DNA of 64,000 bases, from positions 4,898,001 through 4,962,000 of the forward strand of contig CM065647.1 in the NCBI GenBank assembly GCA_033220425.1, given 5' to 3'. Of the stretch, positions 1,888-62,619 are shown piece by piece; within the stretch, counting starts at the first letter, position 1, and every line of letters begins with the position of its first letter. This stretch comes from Lepraria neglecta (taxonomy: Eukaryota > Ascomycota > Lecanoromycetes > Lecanorales > Stereocaulaceae). Under the pieces are notes generated by a model that searched no databases, was not told the DNA's origin, and saw only the letters and a program-made list of their open reading frames with translations. A program made the translations under genes and the position numbers.

Positions 1888-3922
1888 ATGGAACTACAAG
1901 GGTCTCGTGAAGCTAAGGCCTACGAGCTCGAAAGCTTCGGTTTTAGGAAGACCTTCTCTAAGGACCGTCCATCAGTGGATGGAATCAAGCATGATGAGGA
2001 GCAGCCAGATGTGCTTGCACGGTTGGGCAAATTGCCAGTCTTAAAGGTTTCGTCCCTGTTCCGGCTTAAGAAGGTAACCGTGTGGAGCTGAACGTTCATA
2101 GCGCAACTTCGGATTCATGTCAATCCTGGGCTTTACTTGTACCATTCTGATAACCTGGGAAGCTGTATTCATGTAAGTGGGAGCTAGCCATGCTAAAGCG
2201 GTGCTAATAGAGGTGATAATTAGCATCTTTGACGTCTCTATTCTAAAGTAAGTCTCTAGACAACCACGGTTTTCATCAATCCTAGCTGATCGTTGGCGGT
2301 AGCGGAGGACCTGCGGGCTTCGTATACGGGTTTCTCTTTGTCTGGGCAGGAACGTTAGCAACCTATGCCTCACTGGGTGAGCTTGCTTCGATGTTGTACC
2401 CACCAAAGAACCTTCCATGATCTCAGCTTATTCTGATGGCAGGGCCCCGACCGCAGGCGGGCAATATCACTGGGTTTCAATGCTTGCTCCATCGAGTTCG
2501 CAGAAATTTCTTAGTTATATAACCGGTAGATCTCCCAGAAATTGGATATTCACAGATTTCACCTGACATTTCATACAGGCTGGCTCACCGTTATCGGCTG
2601 GCAGGCAGCATTTGCAACGGCCAATTTTGTTTCAGCAGCAATCATCCAAGGCTTGATTGTCCTGACCCACCCCAACTACAGTCCCAAGCCCTACCAGCAA
2701 ATGCTTCTATTCTGGGCGGTAATGGCTTTCGCCGTATTCATCAACGTGCTCGCCAGCACTGTGTTACCCAAGTTCGAGGGTTTTATATTGGTCCTCCATA
2801 TTGTGGGATACTTCGCAATCCTGCTACCGTTATTGATCCTTGGAGAACATCAAGACTCTCACCAAGTCTTTGGCCTCTGGATGAATGAGGGCCACCTGCC
2901 TACGCAAGGGGTGTCGTTCATGGTCGGCCTTCTGGGACCCGTCTTCATGTTTTTGGGCGCCGATGGAGCAGTACATGTAGGTTACTTACTGCGTGCCCAT
3001 ACAATATCAGCTAAATCCTGTCTTCAGATGTCCGAAGAAATCCAGAATGCTCCGACTGTCGTCCCATGGTCCATTCTATTCAGTATAATCATCAATGGCG
3101 CCTTGGCCTTCTCAATGATCATTGTAACTCTCTTCGTTACCGTTGACCTAGAGACAGCATTGAAATCCCCGACTGGCTACGCCTTCATGGAAATATTTGT
3201 CAATGCGACTGGTTCACTTGCTGGAGCAACGGTAATGGCATGTATCATTACAGTCATGCAGCTGTTTGCCAACGTTGGATTACTAGCATCATGCTCCCGG
3301 ATGTCTTGGTCGTTTGCACGCGATCGAGGTTTGCCAGGTTATAGAATCCTGGCGAAGGTAAAATAACCCAAGAACTAGACGTAACCCCAGTTTTTTGGAG
3401 ACAAGAGTCGACCTAACAACTTCCCATCAACAGGTGAATCCACGGACCTCGATCCCTGTCGCAACAATCATCATCACCACCCTAATATCCACCCTCCTCT
3501 CACTAATCATCCTAGGTTCATCCACAGCTTTCAACAACATCGTATCCATCTCCGTCGCCGGACTATCCGCATCCTACGTCCTAGCTATCAGCCTCTTACT
3601 CTGGCGCCGCACCACCGGCGGAATTCGGCATTCCTACCTCTCAGCATCCCAGCTCACGAACACTCCTGGCTTTGAGCTTAGCTGGGGCCCTTGGTACATG
3701 CCAGGCATCTTAGGACCTGCGGTCAACTTGTTCGCTATCTTCTACGTCATTGTTATTCTCTTCTTCAGCTTCTGGCCGCCTGAGATGCCAGTTGATGCTG
3801 GGAACGTGAACTACTCGATTCTGGTAACGGGCGCTGTTTTAATTTTTAGCGTGGCTTGGTATTTCGCGTGGGGGAGGAGAGATTATAAAGGGCCGGTAAT
3901 TGATGCTTCGAGTGTGCATTGA
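1888..3922 (+). CDS. Amino-acid/choline-type permease (APC superfamily, fungal GABA/choline permease group)
   Basis: Seven exons give an uninterrupted 539-aa protein: 1888-2046, 2102-2172, 2303-2392, 2443-2525, 2579-2976, 3028-3357 and 3434-3922 (sum 1,620 nt). The hydrophilic N-terminus (about 50 residues) is followed by RNFGFMSILGFTCTILITWE, the first membrane helix of this family. GGPAGFVYGFLFVWAGTLAT and the APTAGGQYHWVSMLAP motif then follow. FARDRGLPG near residue 370 is the usual cytosolic loop before the last helices. About twelve membrane helices and a length of 539 aa fit Uga4/Hnm1-like transporters, which import amino acids, GABA or choline across the plasma membrane; the substrate cannot be told from sequence. 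The exon 2-3 junction is the least certain, because it drops a few residues often present after TWE and an alternative acceptor exists at 2284. No disabling change was seen. Confidence 0.9.
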
Positions 3923-4056
3923 TTTATACATAGATATGAAGAGTCAAAATTAACGACGCCGTACAGTATTTATGAAAAAACAATTTTATCTTCGTGTAAA
4001 GTGCAATGTATATTCGAAATACTTCAATGTTGCTAGTATTCATGAAACTTCAATCT

Positions 4057-5229
4057 CTAGCAATGTTGAAAATCCCTACAATCAGTCCCCCCTTCCCTCA
4101 CCGACCCCACCTTCTCAAAAACAACGGCCGTATACCAAATCCTCTTCCCCTTCACACTCAACCTATGCACATACTTATTCTGCAACACAACCCTCAAATC
4201 AGTCCACTCATCGTCCCACGCCGACCCCAGCCCCATCGCCGCTTTTTTCAATTTGTTCACGAATTTTCCCCATGGCTTTGCCTGTTTTGTCAACCAGCCG
4301 CCGATTTAGAATGTTTTGCTCTTCTATCATTACGACAATGTGGGACTCGTCAAAAGGCACTCAACAGCTGCATCGAAGACGTCGAGGGAAACGTCGCGAG
4401 GTCCAGGACATAGTGCTTGAGAGATAATCACTATGTGGAAACGGTTGGCATTGAACCCTTTCACAATCGGTGATGTGGCATCAGCGAGGTCGAGCACGAA
4501 GAGGTCGTTGTAGATTTGCGTTCCGCCAGATCTATTCAAATGGTGTCTCTTAACAGCCGCAAGAGCTTGCATGGAAGTATCCGTGCCGGTGATATGCATT
4601 CGATCATCCCCCGCTGTCGAGTGTTTCCGCGACTGGCGCCCGACCATTCCACTTCCTGCTTCAATGTTCAAGATGAATATTGGTCCTGGGGGGAGGGGAA
4701 GGTACTGAAGGGAATGTGGTCGCTGATGAGGTTGACGGGTGTTTGGGGGGTTTTGCATCTGAAGGTTGTGTGGAATATGTATCTGTGAGGCTAATTAGTC
4801 TAGTGCTGAAGGGGGATTGAGATGTGCTGCTTACTCTTAAAGGTGAGGATGGGGATAGATGGTGTCTAGCTCGTGAAGAACTAGCAGGGAGGTGTGCATT
4901 CCTTGCTTGAACTCCACTCCGATATATTCATCTGTAGGATCAGTAACTGGCCAGTTTCCGTGGAAGAAGAGGACGTAGCGATCAGCTGGCGTAATGATCA
5001 AATATCTTTTTCCTCTGATTACGCGCCTTTCAATTTCGCTGATGTCTGTAGCGTCATCTTTGTCCTCTGTTTCCTCTTTCGTATCTTGTGTAGATTCCCA
5101 GTCCATCTTTGCTTGTATGCTTGTGATTTCGGCGGCTTCGCTCGTTTCTCTCTGGTTCTCTGTTTCAGCCATGTAATACCACCTGCTTGCACTCTCCAGT
5201 AGTAGGGGGTTGGAGAGTGTCAAAGCCAT
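4057..5229 (-). other. Doubtful minus-strand coding region, possibly a decayed gene
   Basis: Three adjacent minus-strand open stretches (5229-4837 from an ATG, then 4758-4330 and 4293-4057) have plausible protein texture. They include an acidic segment, a RYLIITPADRYVLFFHGNWP stretch and NANRFHIVIISQAL. I could not join them with ordinary introns: no good donor lies near 4837, and the frame changes again around 4330. A further hydrophobic open stretch lies at 5564-5271 but lacks an ATG. The set could be a decayed gene or several chance frames. No family was recognised. Confidence 0.3.
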
Positions 5230-5564
5230 AGAATCTTGGTTCCTGTTCGAGATATTCTAATCTGGTGCCTTTAAATGGGTACAACCGTAAAAGCGTTGAT
5301 TCGTTTGCTTGTGTCTTTTTTGTTGCAACCTCTCGGCGACGGAAGGAGAAGAAAGCTCTCTTGACCTTTGTAGGATATTGCTACCGTTCTGGTCCCATGT
5401 GTGACCAGAGAAGTGGTCTCATGATGCCAACCCGGGGTATCAGTAGCTTCGAGTGACACTGAAGTGTTTCGGATCTGGTTCGTTAGCGAGGCCGATATGT
5501 CGTACGACAGCAAAAGCGCCGTCGTTGCAAAGCAGATGAGAGCAATCGCGTTGAATTTACACAC

Positions 5565-8032
5565 GAAAATTTGGAAGAAACAAAGTTCACGTTCAAATCT
5601 CGGTATAAGGGGTTTTCAAATTCGATCTATATATTCTGGTAGTCATAGTCCGCTTGAAGACGACTCGATCACTGTTCTTGAGCTTCTAATTTGCTCCACT
5701 CCTCGTGGAAGCAAAGCTCAAAATGGAGGGCATTCAGCTCATCAACACGGTGGGCTGCCTTATTCATTTGGAAATAGAGGGCCGGATACGCGTGTCTTCT
5801 CCAGGTTTTCTAAAGTGGGTTTTGGCTTATTTGGACGTGTGTGTGTTTCCAGTATTATAGACCGGCCATGAGCCAGACCGTGACGGTGATTAGGGTTTGT
5901 TCATATCTGTTGGGTGGAAAAATGGCACGGCACAACTCCCAATCAAAGCATCAGTGCGTCAACGTAGATTGTATCACGTGCGAATTTTTTGATTGCAGCT
6001 TCGAACAGCCAGCGTTGCCCACCGAAATGCGAGGATCGGCTTAGAAAATGCGTGGTCGGGCTGGGAAGGTCAGGGTATTTGCCAGACATTCGAGGCTTGC
6101 ATTGGGACGTAGGGGTAAATTGTTCTCTGGTCAGAGTTATTGTCAATGCGACCGGATGTGAGTGGGAGGTCGCCGATACAATACTTCTGATCAATCTCGT
6201 CTACTAGATCTCATGGTCTCAACATTGCCTCCTGGTCCCAATATTTAAAACAGTATGCTCTCAAATGGTCATTTACGCAGCGGTCGGTACGTCGTTCCCC
6301 CAAGAACAGCATTCCTGATGCGCCATCGGCGGAGGAACTTAAGAAAATCTCTGACAGCTTGAAGCTGCGTTTGCGTATGGCGGACGCGGATGCCTTGCTC
6401 TGTGACTTGTCTATAAAAAGGGTCTGAAGTCATTCCCAAGTAGATTTGGCTTACGGGCCCTAGTAGAGTTCGGTCAGATTTCTTCCAGACACGCGAAGAC
6501 CGAGCAGCTTGGGCCGCTTCGGAGACTTGGACTGGTTGGCGGTGCAGGTGGAAGTCCATGATTGATGTGGTTAGATGGGGATATTGCTGTAGCCTGGCTG
6601 GGATAGGATGGGATAGGCCCTCAAAGAAGTGGTTCAGCAGTAGTAAGAGGCTCAAGAAGGAATGGTACGATCGGTTTAGTAGCGTGTAGTCCGGCGATCA
6701 ATACTCAATCGTGATAGTGCCGAGCCAGGCAACACAATGCCTTTGAACCTTAATCGAAGATCACAATATCTGTCGCTATGGTGCAAGCGTTGCAAGATAT
6801 CAATGAGATCTATGAATGTGAACAGCCTGAGGAGCCAGAATCTATGGAATGAGGCTCCTAATATACATGGTGGAGTGTCAAACAGTAGAAGACGCTAGAA
6901 TGTTGACAAAGAAATGGTGATAAAGGAAAATGGCAAATAGCATACAACAACTAGCTCCACTCGCTCCCCTCACACGCCTAGTCACCTACCACATGCATCC
7001 AGCAAGTTCCTCTATTCCAGTAGAATCCACCTCCTTCTATCTTAAAAACCTTCCTCGCTCCTTGAGTTTAACAAAGAGACACAGCTTAGTGCAGTCGATG
7101 TCTATATTTATACCTTAGTGGCCAGCCTTGCTTGAGCAAGGGATCCGACACTAGCCTACCTCGCCTAACGCACCCACACAAATCACCCCTTCCACATCAG
7201 AAATCCTTCCAGTCAAGCCTCGCCATCAGAGATACCATCAACATCACTTAGGCCCTCACGTTCGAAGAGCACATAAACAGATCATTATGTATGACTTGCC
7301 CAACCCGCGGCAACGATGTGCTCGGTATCGCTGTGAGGCAAATCTATTAGGTGAGTCCACACCACGTTACGCTACTCGGACTTCTTGATGTTCTGCTGCG
7401 TCAAGAGACCAGCCTCGCAAACAGCAATACTGACTGGCCACAGCCCAGAGGCTGGGCACCAAAATGACACGATTCGTCCGCGACGCTCTTCTCAACGGCG
7501 AGGCTTCGAATCGACTGTCGTCCTTTTGTTGATGATGGGAGCGTGTATGGAAGCAATGCCTCTGTCCGCGGCTTGCTTAGGTACGTTTTCATCGCTTTAT
7601 AGAAAATTCCAACTTACCGATTCAGTCGCTTTTCAGGTCGTGGTTCCTTTCGGTCGAGCTCTACATAACGTGCGGTATTGATTTAGATGCCTCGGAAGCG
7701 TGGCGCAGTTAGGACGCCGCGTGACTCGCTCATCACCTAGGCCTTCTTCGACAGTCCAGTTCCTAATGGCCTTGGCAGGTGCACAAAATGCTCTCGCACC
7801 TGCATCCAGACTAGACAGTCTGGTAAGAACACGATCACCAGTTTCCTGATATCTGGGACTAATGGAATCAAAAGGGACCACGCCAATCGGGCCTGATCCA
7901 CATACATTCGTCAGTGGAGCCGTCAGCATCTATACTCATAGATCTTACCCGAACGATATATTGTCTGCCCCTTCCTATCAATCAAATCCGGAGATAAATA
8001 AAGGGAATGAGCATGAGAACGTGAAGCCCAAG
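5565..8032. other. Long interval without a supportable gene
   Basis: Nothing here can be supported as a gene. The longest open stretch (6655-6269, minus, 128 codons) starts with TTG and shows no family features. Short frames at 7385-7929 overlap each other on both strands. The interval may contain old sequence decayed beyond recognition. Confidence 0.5.
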
Positions 8033-27604: not shown

Positions 27605-30190
27605 TTACACATTGGATAGACATGGTGTCCAAGACCTAGCAATACGATCTTCCGCTCTTTGCAGTCTCTCTGCCTCGTCGGTTAGTATCGCTCCTAATAT
27701 TGGGGATTGTACGCCGTCCTGCCTGCAGACTAGCACACATGCCCTTATCAATTCATTCAACACCAGAAAACCCTCAACCTCCGAGTCTGACAGTAATGAC
27801 GCGTGGATCAACTCTGTACTGCAGCGGTGAGCGCTAGCCACATCGAGTTTTAGCCGATAGAGGCGAGGATCTTGACCGCCGCCGGTGTCTGATCGGAAAA
27901 ATTCTTCAAGCAGAGCGCAGAGGCTGTCTACCTCACGTCTTGCGAACTGTTTGACCTTCATGCTGCTAACGAGATACACCATGTCAAGCCAAGAAACATA
28001 AAGCCCTTCAGGACCTGCTTGTGTGTTCCTCTCAAGTCGGTGAATAGAGACCTCGAAAAAAGTCTGTATGGAATGTGGGTATCGGGAAGTATTTCGTCGA
28101 AAGCATAGTATGTCGCTTCTAGCAGCATTTGATTCCCATCTTGAGAGATATGAGGTTGCGTTTCCATCAGAAGAACCATAATGGTCCTTCAGATAGTGGG
28201 ATATGTTGATGATCGCCGCTGGTAGACAGCCCACGCTTGCAACAACCTGCAATATTAACTCCATATCCTGCGAGCTTGACGGGACCTCAGAGCTTGCGCC
28301 ACGTCTTCTGCGAGCGCTCATGTACGGATTTGATCGCTTTAGCAGCTCCAAAAGCTCGCAAGCCTCATTTGGCTGAATGAGCGGAACATTAAAGTTGGCA
28401 GCATGCATGTACGACGTTTCGTCCGCGATCTCTGGTGCTGTATATGACCTCTATATGATCCCTGTTGATTATATCCGCAATGCCCGAGAGATCGGACACA
28501 TTGAGTCCGTTCACATCGTCAAGTATTACGAGTGTTTTGGTCCTATCGGCTTCACACGTCCTGAGCCCAAATTTTCAGCAAATTAACGAGATAGGTCACG
28601 TTATTGTCTGAAGCATAGAAAAAACTGTCACCCTGGCCACTCGACCCTGTCATGGCGCTGTTGTCGTTGCGAGAGTCTAGTTGGAGTTGTTCATACTTCA
28701 AATCCAATGCCGTGGTGACCAAGTCTTCCTCGAATGTTTTTTTCGGATCCGGCTCGAAACCATAGGACGAATCGCCAATGGCCCAACTTTTCGATGATTG
28801 ATCAACTAAACTGAGTTTTGCTGCTCAAAGAACATTTACAGTCAGCTGCTGACCAGGGCTACGTGAGCTAGCCACATGACTTCAAGAAACAGACATAACC
28901 TACGCTACCCATTCCTGATAACGAGATCCGCCGCGGCAAAGGGCTATCTCACTCCGTCCATGTTTCGCAAATGTCCTCTGTCAGATCTGCTCTTCCAACA
29001 AAAGGCTCGCAACGATGGGGCAGATTCACCCGGTGCTCTCCTCCAGGGATAGCTACAAAGCTTGGAGGGGCCCCGGGGATGCTATTTGCATGTTGAATGG
29101 CTCGGAAGCGTTGTGAATCTGTTCCAAATCACACATTAACATGCGGGAATGGCATTGACGAGGTTGACTACCCATGCTCTTTACACGTTACTGGGCGGAT
29201 TCACATACGTCGAAGGCTATTTCCTCCATTTGTACACTCTGGGTGATATCTTCGCGAATTTTCTGCTACAGATTTCAAGTTGGGGTCGACATCATGTTGG
29301 TAAGCATTATCCTCTCGCCCAGAGAACTTGCAGATCTCTGAATAGTTGCGATCAAGTTCAAGTTGAGTTTCTCGAGGTATCCCTAGCTTCGCGGATGCGG
29401 AATCCCCAATAAACTGTATGCTTTCAGTTATGCCACATGCCTTGCGTATGAAGACGAATCATGCTTGTCATTTGTGGCGCAATTCTTACACCCCGGACCT
29501 TGACTTCCATCTTACGCGTTTCAATGAAGCTGAGAACCTCATAGTCATTGAGTTGATGCCGGAAGTGATCATTCGATATTTCACTGAGCAGCGAATGCTT
29601 CCGCAAGCTATCAAGTAAAGAATTTGTTGGTTCACTTGTTAACGTGCTACAGAATTTGGCAGCGGATTCTGCAATACCGGCATGGTTGCCAACACTATGA
29701 GGCGTTGCAAAGAATACTAAACCTCGGGTAGACGACTTAATACACGCATAAAGTGGGTTCAGCTGTGCTTCGACAAGAGCTTGCTTCACGAGAAGACCTC
29801 CCACCGAGTGCGCAACGAACATCAACGGTCTATGTCTCTCTATATCCTACCGGCGTTTGTGAAAGAGCCGATTTAGGAGTGTATTGGTATGGCCTTGGAC
29901 AGGAGAATTCGACGTTTTGGAGAGAACGCTCGAGTTGTAGGCGAATAACAGAATTCTTGCATATAGTATTGATGCCGGTAGTAGTGCCTGAGGCCAGAAA
30001 GTTCCATTTTCGTGGGTCCAGGTTTTTCCGGGCATGATCAGCGTTGCCTTTCGGGTTCAATCCGTGAACGAAGACGATACTTTCCCAAAGAATCAGTTCA
30101 AGTCTCCCACAAGCGCTACTAGTCAGGTTTTACTCAAGTTCAGAATCATCAGGCTCAACGAGGACCTCGATGTATTCCTATGATCCACGT
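27605..30190 (-). pseudogene. NLR-like (STAND) gene: SesB-type alpha/beta-hydrolase plus NB-ARC, decayed
   Basis: Minus strand. Near 30.1-29.9 kb SIVFVHGLNPKGNADHAR opens an alpha/beta-hydrolase of the SesB/DUF676 type. FVAHSVGGLLVKQALVEA (29.8 kb) holds the nucleophile-elbow serine, followed by STRGLVFFATPHSVGNHAGI. Around 28.9-28.4 kb an NB-ARC-like region has a KTQ remnant where the P-loop should be, a Walker B strand TKTLVILDDVNGLNVSDLSG and VIYSTRDRG. The stretch 28408-27605 continues with NEACELLELLKRSNP and helical sequence typical of the rest of an NB-ARC. Such proteins detect non-self or pathogen cues and trigger incompatibility-type responses. The frame changes and in-frame stops in several places, and the P-loop is not intact, so I call it a pseudogene. 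The helical region at 24.5-27.0 kb is probably its C-terminal part. Confidence 0.7.
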
Positions 30191-59805: not shown

Positions 59806-62619
59806 ATGAGTACCTCTTTTGCTGGGAAGTCGACGGGAAGGGCCCGCTATGACGCTGTGCATGTGCTGCTAATCAGCTGGGAGCACGACAACCTCGGCGT
59901 CATTGAGGAGATCGCAGATTTGCAACATGTCTTTCAAACCCTTTACTACTATAGCACCGAGAAGTTCAGCATCCCAAGCAGTCGGGCTCACAACGCTCTG
60001 GCAAAGAGACTTACCGATTTCATCTATCAACACGAAGCTAAGGAAAATCTGCTCATCGTGGAGTATGGGTGACATGGACACATGAACGATGACCGCCTGT
60101 GCATCTGGTCCTGGTAAGTTGGGCCATTTCTCCAGCAATGCGCACTGCTGCTGGTATAATTTCTCCAAGACTTGTTGTTTCCATACCCTTCTTCTGACTA
60201 TTTCGATGTTCCTGCGTCGGAAGGTCCCTGTTCATACCCTACCGCTGACGTGAATTTTCCAGCACCGACACTGCAGACTCTCCTACTGTCCAATGGTTCG
60301 GACTGGAGACGATGCTCCAAGGAGCCCATTCCGACGTCTTGGTTCTACTCGATTAATGCGCTGCAGCGAGCTCAGTCGCAGAGGCCGGCAATGGTGTTAA
60401 GGAACTAATAGCGGCGTGTGGATTCGAGATCGTGGCTCCCGGTGTTGGCCAGCATCCGTTCACGAGAATGCTCATCGAAGAACTCGATTTTTGGGTTTAT
60501 ACAAGTCCTCTCTCGGCGGGATTGCTACAAAACAAGGTGCTTGCAAGGATCAAATACTGGAAGCCAAGATTTGGGCCTCGTGGAGACTTTGAGCGCAGAA
60601 AGTCTCCGATTTATCTTGTTCTGACCAACTCTGAAAGGGAGAGGAGCATTGAGCTGGCACCATTGGAACCTTTCATCTCCTCCGCCTCCAATATCCCGGC
60701 TCCTTCTTCCACGACGCCTCCTTTTTAGCAGATTACCCATTCTGTCACCTCCCCTGTGAGCATACCGAAGCTGGCAAGCATGCGCGAAGGCACTCTCCGG
60801 GATATGCTATACGAAGCTCCCGTTAAAACCCTTGTTGGCAGATATTTTATTCCAGAGCAGGCATTCCAGCATATAATGTCTAGCGAACGCATTCATAGCT
60901 GTGTTGAGAGCTCTCAAATTGATGTTTTACATCGCTATGAAGTTGCCCAAGCCATCGAAAGCAGCGGAAAGATGATTTTTGCTATCTTGGTCCTACTTGC
61001 GAAGGAGTATCTGATCGTCAATTTTATCCAAAATGATCAGCTGATCGAGAGTCGAGCTCTGGACTCGAGACTGCCACAAGATCTGCAATTCCTTCGACAC
61101 ATACTTGCAGGGAATGATTTAGCGTCGGAGTTCTACGATTGCCAGTGGGAGATCATAGCTCCATTATTCAGGGACCATCATATGCATAGAGAGTTGCATC
61201 AAGACACCATCATTCCCTTCCTTTATAGGCAAGAGCCAAGCGCGGGAGGTTTTGGAGACGTATTCAGGGTGACTTTGCAGGCAAATCATCATGGTTTTTC
61301 TTTTAGACGCGGTGACAATGTGATTGCCCTTTAGTGAATTCTGTATGCCCATTTTCCGACGCTATGCCCTAGGTGGACGTGGTACAGAAAATCTTCAGAC
61401 AACCTGTGAGAGATTCTTTTGGATTCGTTGAAGAGGGTGAAAGTGACGGAGAAACCAATGAAGAGGAATTGAAGGTGAGCAATGAAGCCCTAGGAACGAG
61501 GAGCGCATACTTCGCCTCATTGGTCGCCTGAGTCATCCGAATATTATCGAAATACTGTCCTCATTCAGCATTCGACAGAGGCCCAGTAACAGTCTACAGA
61601 ATTCTAAATACGTTCACAGTATGCTTTTTCCGCTCGCAGAAGGTGACCTCGAATCAATCTTCAGGGACAGGCAGGAAGATCCATTAGATCGTGCAATCGG
61701 CGGGGATCAGCTCGTTTATCAGCAGCTCTTCGGGCTTGCTTCTGCCATTGAGAGTTTTCACAACTATACTTGCAAAGAATTCGATCTCCAATTGAAAGGT
61801 TACTATGGCGATATCAACCCACGTAATATTCTCATAAGCAAGGGCAAACTCCTCTTTGGAGACTTTGGCCTTTCACAGTTGGGCCCAAACGCGCCTAATT
61901 TACAATATGAGGATTTCGGAGGAGATTATTTCGCCCCAGAATGCCAGCGTAACGATGATGGGTGGGGCAAGGTCGGGCAAGAAAGTGACACCTGGTCATT
62001 TGGCTGTATGCTGGCGAACATCGTGACATACGTAAGGTGAAAAGGTCAGGGAGTCGAGAACTTCCGTGTGAGCAGAATGCATCAACCTGTCAAGTTTTGG
62101 AAATCTCATACCTACCACGCATGGGGCTCGATCCTTCCAACAGTAGAGAAATGACTAGACGATTTAGAAGATGAGACTCCGGCTGCTCAAAAAAATGATC
62201 TGTACCTGATACGAGACATGCTCAAAATCGATCCCGGGCAACGGCCGAAAGCGGACGTTGTTACTATTCGACTTTTCTTGATTTCGCAAAGACTCGTCTT
62301 TGATTCAACGCTGCGGGCATTCGAATTAGTGATTAATATGAAACCCCCTTCAGAACTCAGGAAAGAGTACGCACGTATCCACTTGTGGGGTTGGTGCTCT
62401 ACCATGTTGGAGTCGGAAAGATATCACCTTGACCCTGAGGAAGAGTCACTCCGCGACTGGATATGGACTTCGAGAGAACTTTTCGAGGGGATCAGCCAAA
62501 CTTTGGCATTGCTGCAGGAGGAGGTTGCTTCGCTTCAGCCCATTCTGAAGGCTCAGAGGGATGCATCAGTGCCAATGCATCTTCCGGTTCGCGGCTTGAT
62601 TGACAACTTTGGCTACTAG
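59806..62619 (+). pseudogene. Caspase-like domain joined to a protein kinase domain, broken
   Basis: From ATG 59806, RARYDAVHVLLISWEHDNLG and IEEIADLQHVFQTLYYYSTE match the beginning of a fungal caspase-like (C14-type) domain. The His-dyad strand (LLIVEYG, then HGHMNDDRLCIWS) lies near 60.05-60.1 kb. The Cys strand is near 60.34 kb, followed by VKELIAACGFEIVAPGVGQH and SPIYLVLTNSERERSIELAP. After about 60.74 kb a linker leads to a kinase domain: GGFGDVF glycine loop near 61.25 kb, IGRLSHPNIIEILSS near 61.53 kb, the YYGDINPRNILI catalytic loop at 61801-61836, DFG at 61861-61869, APE at 61933-61941 and SDTWSFGCMLANI, then LIRDMLKIDPGQRPKADVV near 62.21 kb. The unit ends at a stop at 62619. The frame is interrupted by stops and shifts in several places, including inside both catalytic domains, so no intact product exists here. 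One gene, or two adjacent genes, remains open. Confidence 0.65.

Follow-up and report, generated by a model that had tools for sequence, protein, structure and literature searches.

The locus at positions 59806-62619 carries a caspase-like domain followed by a protein kinase on the same (+) strand, both recognised well above chance, and we regard it as the probable remnant (probability about 0.7) of one recently silenced gene that encoded a caspase-like protease, a Ser/Pro-rich linker and a C-terminal kinase module. The present copy is inactive, as both halves are interrupted. Throughout, the window is the whole stretch of 64,000 nucleotides of Lepraria neglecta DNA that was analysed (C2:4898001-4962000), and relatives were sought in the fungus's own genome of 42.0 Mb on 11 contigs. 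The two domains, their order and shared frame, their lesions and the family to which they belong can be read directly from the DNA and its relatives; origin as a single protein is favoured, not proven.

Organisation of the locus

The His-side exon of the caspase-like domain runs for 88 codons (59806-60069) to its first stop and shares 57-58% identity with C2:640k (L037). This stop, a TGA at 60070-60072, lies directly 5' of the His codon (60073-60075), whose place is given by the relatives. An intron of 149 nt with GT...AG borders (60114-60262) separates the His and Cys halves, which are also found in separate open frames in L034-L036 (C8:3253k, C8:3265k and C8:3272k) and L037. The start of the Cys-side exon (60263-60353) is supported by tblastn alignments of four relatives, with matches from 60255 or 60261, and is followed by a TAA (60354-60356) directly 5' of the catalytic-Cys codon (60357-60359). 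The latter was placed by alignment and is also what we take to be the catalytic residue by analogy with the metacaspase DSC motif. The remainder of the domain, including this Cys, extends over 60357-60665 with 57-68% identity to L034-L037, and leads into a Ser/Pro-rich linker (60666-60779) that is in a frame common to both neighbours and contains a TAG at 60726-60728.

The assignment of the first domain as caspase-like is carried mainly by its relatives. Four loci of the same genome match 60255-60713 (E 3e-55 to 4e-43), the His side (59839-60114) is matched at E 3e-32 with L037 as the query, and the His and Cys strands align across the relatives, the relic retaining both codons, each behind a stop. 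The caspase-like pieces of the window gave no Pfam match at E up to 1. Peptidase_C14 (PF00656, 'Caspase domain') is matched by three of the five relatives that cover the His strand (3.9e-4, 4.1e-4 and 5.9e-3, each below the curated threshold), while L037 and L040, in which that strand is covered, and three Cys-side pieces showed no Peptidase_C14 match. The homologous locus C3:2815k, related to the caspase-like family at E 8.7e-7 and 6.6e-10, passes the Peptidase_C14 cut-off (2.1e-5; 24.8 bits against 21.4) and shows a weak similarity (0.013) to the caspase-like front of Raptor. CHAT (PF12770) was matched neither by the window pieces (E up to 1) nor by the relatives (E up to 0.1-10). Because Peptidase_C14 is matched in relatives and CHAT is not, the name caspase-like, nearer to Peptidase_C14 than to CHAT, is supported by the sequence comparisons. 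Searching solved structures with a profile of the Cys half returned no match and no caspase, and the His-half profile found only a chance stretch of tryptophan synthase (E 0.7 and above), which was discarded. PADLOC reported none of the five caspase-like pieces and matched only two kinase-type proteins.

The kinase module begins with an N-terminal region and glycine loop (60780-61331), the first ATG after the linker TAG being at 60780. Positions 60780-60839 were given to the module by eye; from 60840 the region shares 41% identity with C2:2447k (L045) over 158 residues (E 2.5e-29). The glycine loop was read by eye at about 61245-61265. The frame then ends with TAG 61332 and the next opens at 61373, which leaves a spoilt exon border (61332-61372) where the ATP-binding lysine is expected; by eye, the open frame breaks near the same point in the kinase relatives L044 and L046. 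A short kinase segment in its own frame follows (61373-61485), with no Pfam match in 61373-61531, and near 61490 the 61373 frame gives way to the 61486 frame. The catalytic core (61486-62037) matches Pfam Pkinase PF00069 at E 9.9e-13 (48.5 bits against a cut-off of 31.7) and PF07714 at 1.3e-7. Its catalytic loop is YGDxxxxN, with D at 61810-61812 and YGD in place of the usual HRD, and DFG (61861-61869) and APE (61933-61941) are readable by eye. Both the HRD-type and the DFG aspartates are thus visible, and the position of the beta-3 Lys falls inside the spoilt border. In the C-lobe, a TGA (62038-62040) is crossed by the homology to L044, a segment at 62041-62151 lies within the L044 alignment (61495-62424), and a further in-frame TGA (62152-62154) precedes the C-terminal part (62155-62619). 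That part retains L044 homology to 62424, ends with the final stop TAG 62617-62619 and, taken alone, has no Pfam kinase match. No tandem repeat was found at the locus.

The sequence-only reading had described a caspase-like fold with His and Cys strands, followed on the same strand by a kinase with glycine loop, catalytic loop, DFG and APE, in a dead copy. The alignments of relatives and their Peptidase_C14 matches, together with a Pkinase score above the cut-off and motifs that can be read by eye, bear out both domains and their order, and the five in-frame stops, the frame change and the spoilt border agree with the copy being dead.

Decay of the relic

The five in-frame stops (TGA 60070, TAA 60354, TAG 60726, TGA 62038 and TGA 62152) correspond to about 0.05 neutral changes per site after inactivation, as estimated from the proportion of single changes that create a stop, with indels and the 61332 border left out. 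Taken part by part, the values are 0.07 in the caspase-like part, 0.025 in the kinase and 1.5 in the linker, figures that are rough because they rest on 2, 2 and 1 stops. The stop density is 2 in 696 caspase bases and 2 in 1782 kinase bases. The stops at 60070 and 60354 each stand exactly one codon before the catalytic His or Cys, which is taken as coincidence.

In the Cys exon, the relic departs at 10 of the 51 columns in which its four nearest relatives agree, and the same count for each relative gives 7/48, 7/48, 4/45 and 1/42, compared here as plain counts without a statistical test. The relic thus has the most deviant sites, though not many more than its relatives, which leads us to infer that selection probably held it for much of its history and that it died late. 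A dated dN/dS analysis was dropped, since synonymous sites between the paralogues are saturated.

Caspase-like loci in the genome

Metacaspases aside, at least 13 caspase-like loci were found in the genome: the window, C8:3253k, C8:3265k, C8:3272k, C2:640k, C6:4474k, C5:2250k, C4:4384k, C8:254k, C4:3334k, C3:2815k, C8:295k and C5:1240k. This number is a lower bound because the search scores the best candidates only; a DNA search of the genome detected two caspase-like paralogues besides the relic. When stretches of 2.5 to 9 kb around the twelve relatives were compared with 12 kinase-family queries, a kinase-family match appeared at two of the 13 loci, the window relic and C8:254k (L041). A match at C4:4384k was to the ankyrin part of a query and not to a kinase. 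According to the sequence-only reading, the fusion would be refuted if homologues had the two domains in separate genes without exception; in this genome that is broadly not so, as C8:254k holds a related pair in one frame, while the kinase-family queries found no kinase at the 11 other loci. This comparison may have overlooked kinases of other families, because the queries also missed the canonical kinase beside C8:254k; used as a query itself, that kinase matched none of the other caspase-like loci, and the main Cys-side frames of 10 of the 11 (C5:1240k left out) contain no Pfam kinase.

The nearest protease relatives of the relic, L034-L037, share 57-68% identity with it but are without a kinase and carry in its place a second, C-terminal domain of about 100 residues (by eye). 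In a tree of both halves, which covers 9 of the 13 loci, the relic groups with L034-L036 (ultrafast bootstrap 91, SH-aLRT 95, branch not starred), a placement that the tree of the Cys half alone does not resolve. The C-terminal domain of L034-L036 has no match in the window.

Several members of the family deserve mention in their own right. L034, L035 and L036 (C8:3252-3273 kb) belong to one subfamily and share a strand, all three lying within about 20 kb. In L037 (C2:637500-645500, 2402-4303 +) the caspase-like and second domains are accompanied by an additional region of about 240 residues, for which no Pfam, PDB or other genome match was found; by eye, its strand pattern may resemble that of gasdermins, a putative likeness. 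In L038 (C4:4381000-4389000, 2395-3821 +) the Cys strand reads DSYAS instead of DCC and there are possible breaks, and this locus is possibly a pseudoenzyme or another relic. L040 (C5:2247000-2256000, 2652-5524 +) has its caspase-like domain in an 807-codon frame together with a part that is alpha/beta-hydrolase-like by eye, with no Pfam match, and this frame overlaps a second one with a VWA domain (4.4e-8).

Kinase relatives and the caspase-like–pseudokinase frame

With 16 caspase-like queries, none of eight other loci of the relic's kinase family (including C8:1838k) matched a caspase-like domain; three matches in that comparison involved the C8:254k query through its pseudokinase part. Among the loci compared, no other one joins the caspase-like protease to the relic's kind of kinase. 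At L048, the kinase module stands behind ankyrin repeats in one frame of 1176 codons (Pfam). The nearest relative of the relic's kinase is L045 (C2:2446k-2447k), with no caspase-like match nearby, which may be broken too because a TAG and a TAA lie inside its match. At L044 (C7:4688k) and L046 (C6:1903k) a DUF7580-like pseudokinase (1.9e-5 and 3.9e-5, both short of the cut-off) comes after the kinase; L044 has the pair in one 830-codon frame, L046 in adjoining frames.

Judged from its sequence, C8:254k is an apparently intact caspase-like–pseudokinase gene. Within C8:248500-256500, this gene (3556-5886, -) and a divergent kinase gene (5959-7341, +) lie next to each other, the latter being a canonical kinase on the opposite strand (Pkinase 6.8e-27). 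A single open frame of 605 codons contains the catalytic-Cys half and then a degenerate kinase-like domain. His and Cys are present; by eye, HRD reads HKG in the kinase part and DFG is missing. Pfam gave only weak matches (PK_Tyr_Ser-Thr 0.015, Pkinase 0.059, DUF7580 0.067), the frame next to the 605-codon frame matches DUF7580 at 0.0075, and C8:254k was not among the 23 matches of a genome search with DUF7580. The assignment as DUF7580-like was made because the pseudokinase matches the DUF7580-like parts of L046 (3e-12) and L044 (1e-9), themselves under the DUF7580 cut-off, and because C8:254k shares relatives with the DUF7580 genome search, e.g., C8:305k and C2:2581k.

C8:254k and the relic have the same protease family, the same domain order and one frame from the Cys half on. 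They differ in that C8:254k is without the HRD and DFG aspartates (by eye), its kinase part is DUF7580-like, its caspase half is distant (34% identity) and a kinase gene adjoins it on the other strand. As a testable relative without visible breaks, it is the best live lead.

One gene or two

Several observations argue for descent from a single gene. Both halves share one frame, with one stop in the 57 codons of 60669-60839, and only 1.9% of 2532 nearby presumed non-coding segments, which overlap and are not independent, equal the junction on coding score and stops. The junction also falls at domain borders, the caspase-like domain being complete to 60665 and kinase homology starting from 60834-60846, and the Cys half is fairly conserved. 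All 11 measured relatives run on in frame for 86-534 residues past the caspase-like domain, whereas the relic would end after 20 (run-on lengths are open-frame lengths for 11 of the 12 relatives, C5:1240k being out, and the domain ends in L038, L054 and L057 were placed by eye). C8:254k provides a precedent for the order caspase-like then kinase-like in a single frame, and L048 for the kinase module joined behind another domain, the ankyrin repeats. Against one gene, a TAG lies between the domains despite the common frame, and it fits random decay poorly, because 0.6% of changes in the linker give stops compared with about 4% in the domains. The 36 linker-only codons score neither as coding nor as non-coding, the coding signal of the junction stemming from 60780-60839, which would be coding under both models. 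ATG 60780, 51 bases after the linker stop, is near the apparent start (by eye) of stand-alone kinases such as L044, and the absence of a caspase-like match at all eight kinase-family loci also weighs against one gene. As the relic groups with L034-L036, whose C-terminal domain finds no match in the window, the joining is confined to the relic's lineage and could have been a late rearrangement. No orthologue in another species came to light.

Such a rearrangement might even have been fatal: a deletion or other event that joined a caspase-like front to a kinase on the same strand would have killed both at once, and the fusion would never have worked. Lesions occur in both halves, as expected had the two died together, the C-terminal domain of the nearest relatives is of another kind, and the TAG and ATG 60780 would be left-overs of the kinase leader. 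We nevertheless consider this chimera unlikely, as the two break points would both need to hit linkers by chance, with the domains left whole and in one frame, and the frame at C8:254k indicates that a related pairing has been kept. It is distinctly improbable that the locus represents two decayed neighbours, one a short caspase-like gene with its stop at 60726, the other a kinase gene with its start at 60780. The stop and the start do look natural, and the family does include kinases that lack a caspase-like domain, but only 51 bases separate stop from start, which is little for a terminator and a promoter in a filamentous fungus, and none of the 11 measured relatives stops so soon after the caspase-like domain. 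A live gene that avoids its stops by introns or recoding is the least credible of these readings: one good intron is present and two stops stand oddly one codon before His and Cys, yet all three kinds of stop occur, the frame changes within the kinase, and two stops lie inside strands conserved in relatives, so that splicing them out would cost the dyad region. The preferred reading remains a single protease–kinase gene that has decayed.

Relation to known systems and possible role

PMC12881547 and PMC10197012 describe a TPR-bearing CHAT protease of Podospora that activates a gasdermin, as well as fungal protease receptors equipped with repeats, NLR cores or kinase-like domains. The former, a 2025 review, states in section 20 and the legend of Fig. 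6 that in fungi a kinase-like domain may be joined to a CHAT or S8 protease domain. Protease–kinase pairing in fungi is thus already known in general terms, and the relic is a variant of it, which weakens the earlier suggestion that the pairing is unusual or little described; because the pairing has been reviewed and the gene no longer functions, the relic adds an example and a lead, not a new system. Like the gasdermin-controlling receptors covered in PMC12881547 (CHAT or S8 with WD40, TPR or ANK repeats, NLR or kinase-like modules), the relic has an N-terminal protease of the caspase clade and then a kinase-type module. It differs from them in that its protease matches Peptidase_C14 through relatives and not CHAT, and in being dead. 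Type I metacaspases of the same genome (C4:163k and C7:1602k) share the caspase fold, but are well over the Pfam cut-off and have a glutamine- or proline-rich front (by eye).

Full-text literature searches gave, among the matches listed, no title or opening of an abstract that concerned a caspase-like–kinase gene of a fungus; searching for a caspase-kinase fusion by name returned irrelevant titles among the best 20 of 51 matches, and passages of PMC4986451, PMC3501461, PMC9815663 and PMC10907252 describe no such fusion. Single-protein scans of viral and prokaryotic contigs likewise found no relative.

The relic looks like a decayed member of the fungal repertoire of modular cell-death receptors. 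In this family, N-terminal protease effectors may be wired to changeable C-terminal sensor or control modules, and in the relic's lineage the C-terminal domain of the nearest relatives would have been swapped for a kinase. The live kinase could have acted as the sensor or relay of a signal, through autophosphorylation or partner binding, and thereby released the protease, which might then have cleaved an executioner of regulated cell death, comparable to the action of the CHAT protease on gasdermin in Podospora. If the relic was one gene, the caspase-like family swaps its C-terminal control module for a kinase. The modules occur in this genome as kinase–pseudokinase (C7:4688k and C6:1903k), caspase-like–pseudokinase beside a divergently placed kinase gene (C8:254k) and caspase-like–kinase (the relic). 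As a speculation to which we give little credence, the fungus may keep and re-make cis-wired death switches from a kinase, a DUF7580-like pseudokinase and a caspase-like protease, a single-polypeptide fungal counterpart of animal RIP kinase/caspase-8 that is lost and gained like allorecognition genes.

On inspection of the open frames at 44-64 kb and in 6 kb beyond, no gasdermin was recognised near the relic. Of four neighbouring frames compared with Pfam, two could be named, as TANGO2 and TB2/DP1/HVA22, neither of them a gasdermin. The relic stands between the TB2/DP1/HVA22 gene and the next gene, at 63.4 kb, whose frame is without a Pfam match. Elsewhere in the window, positions 29430-29966 (-) match the hydrolase-like part of L040 (28.9% identity, E 3.9e-9); this is another gene of the L040 hydrolase kind, far from the relic.
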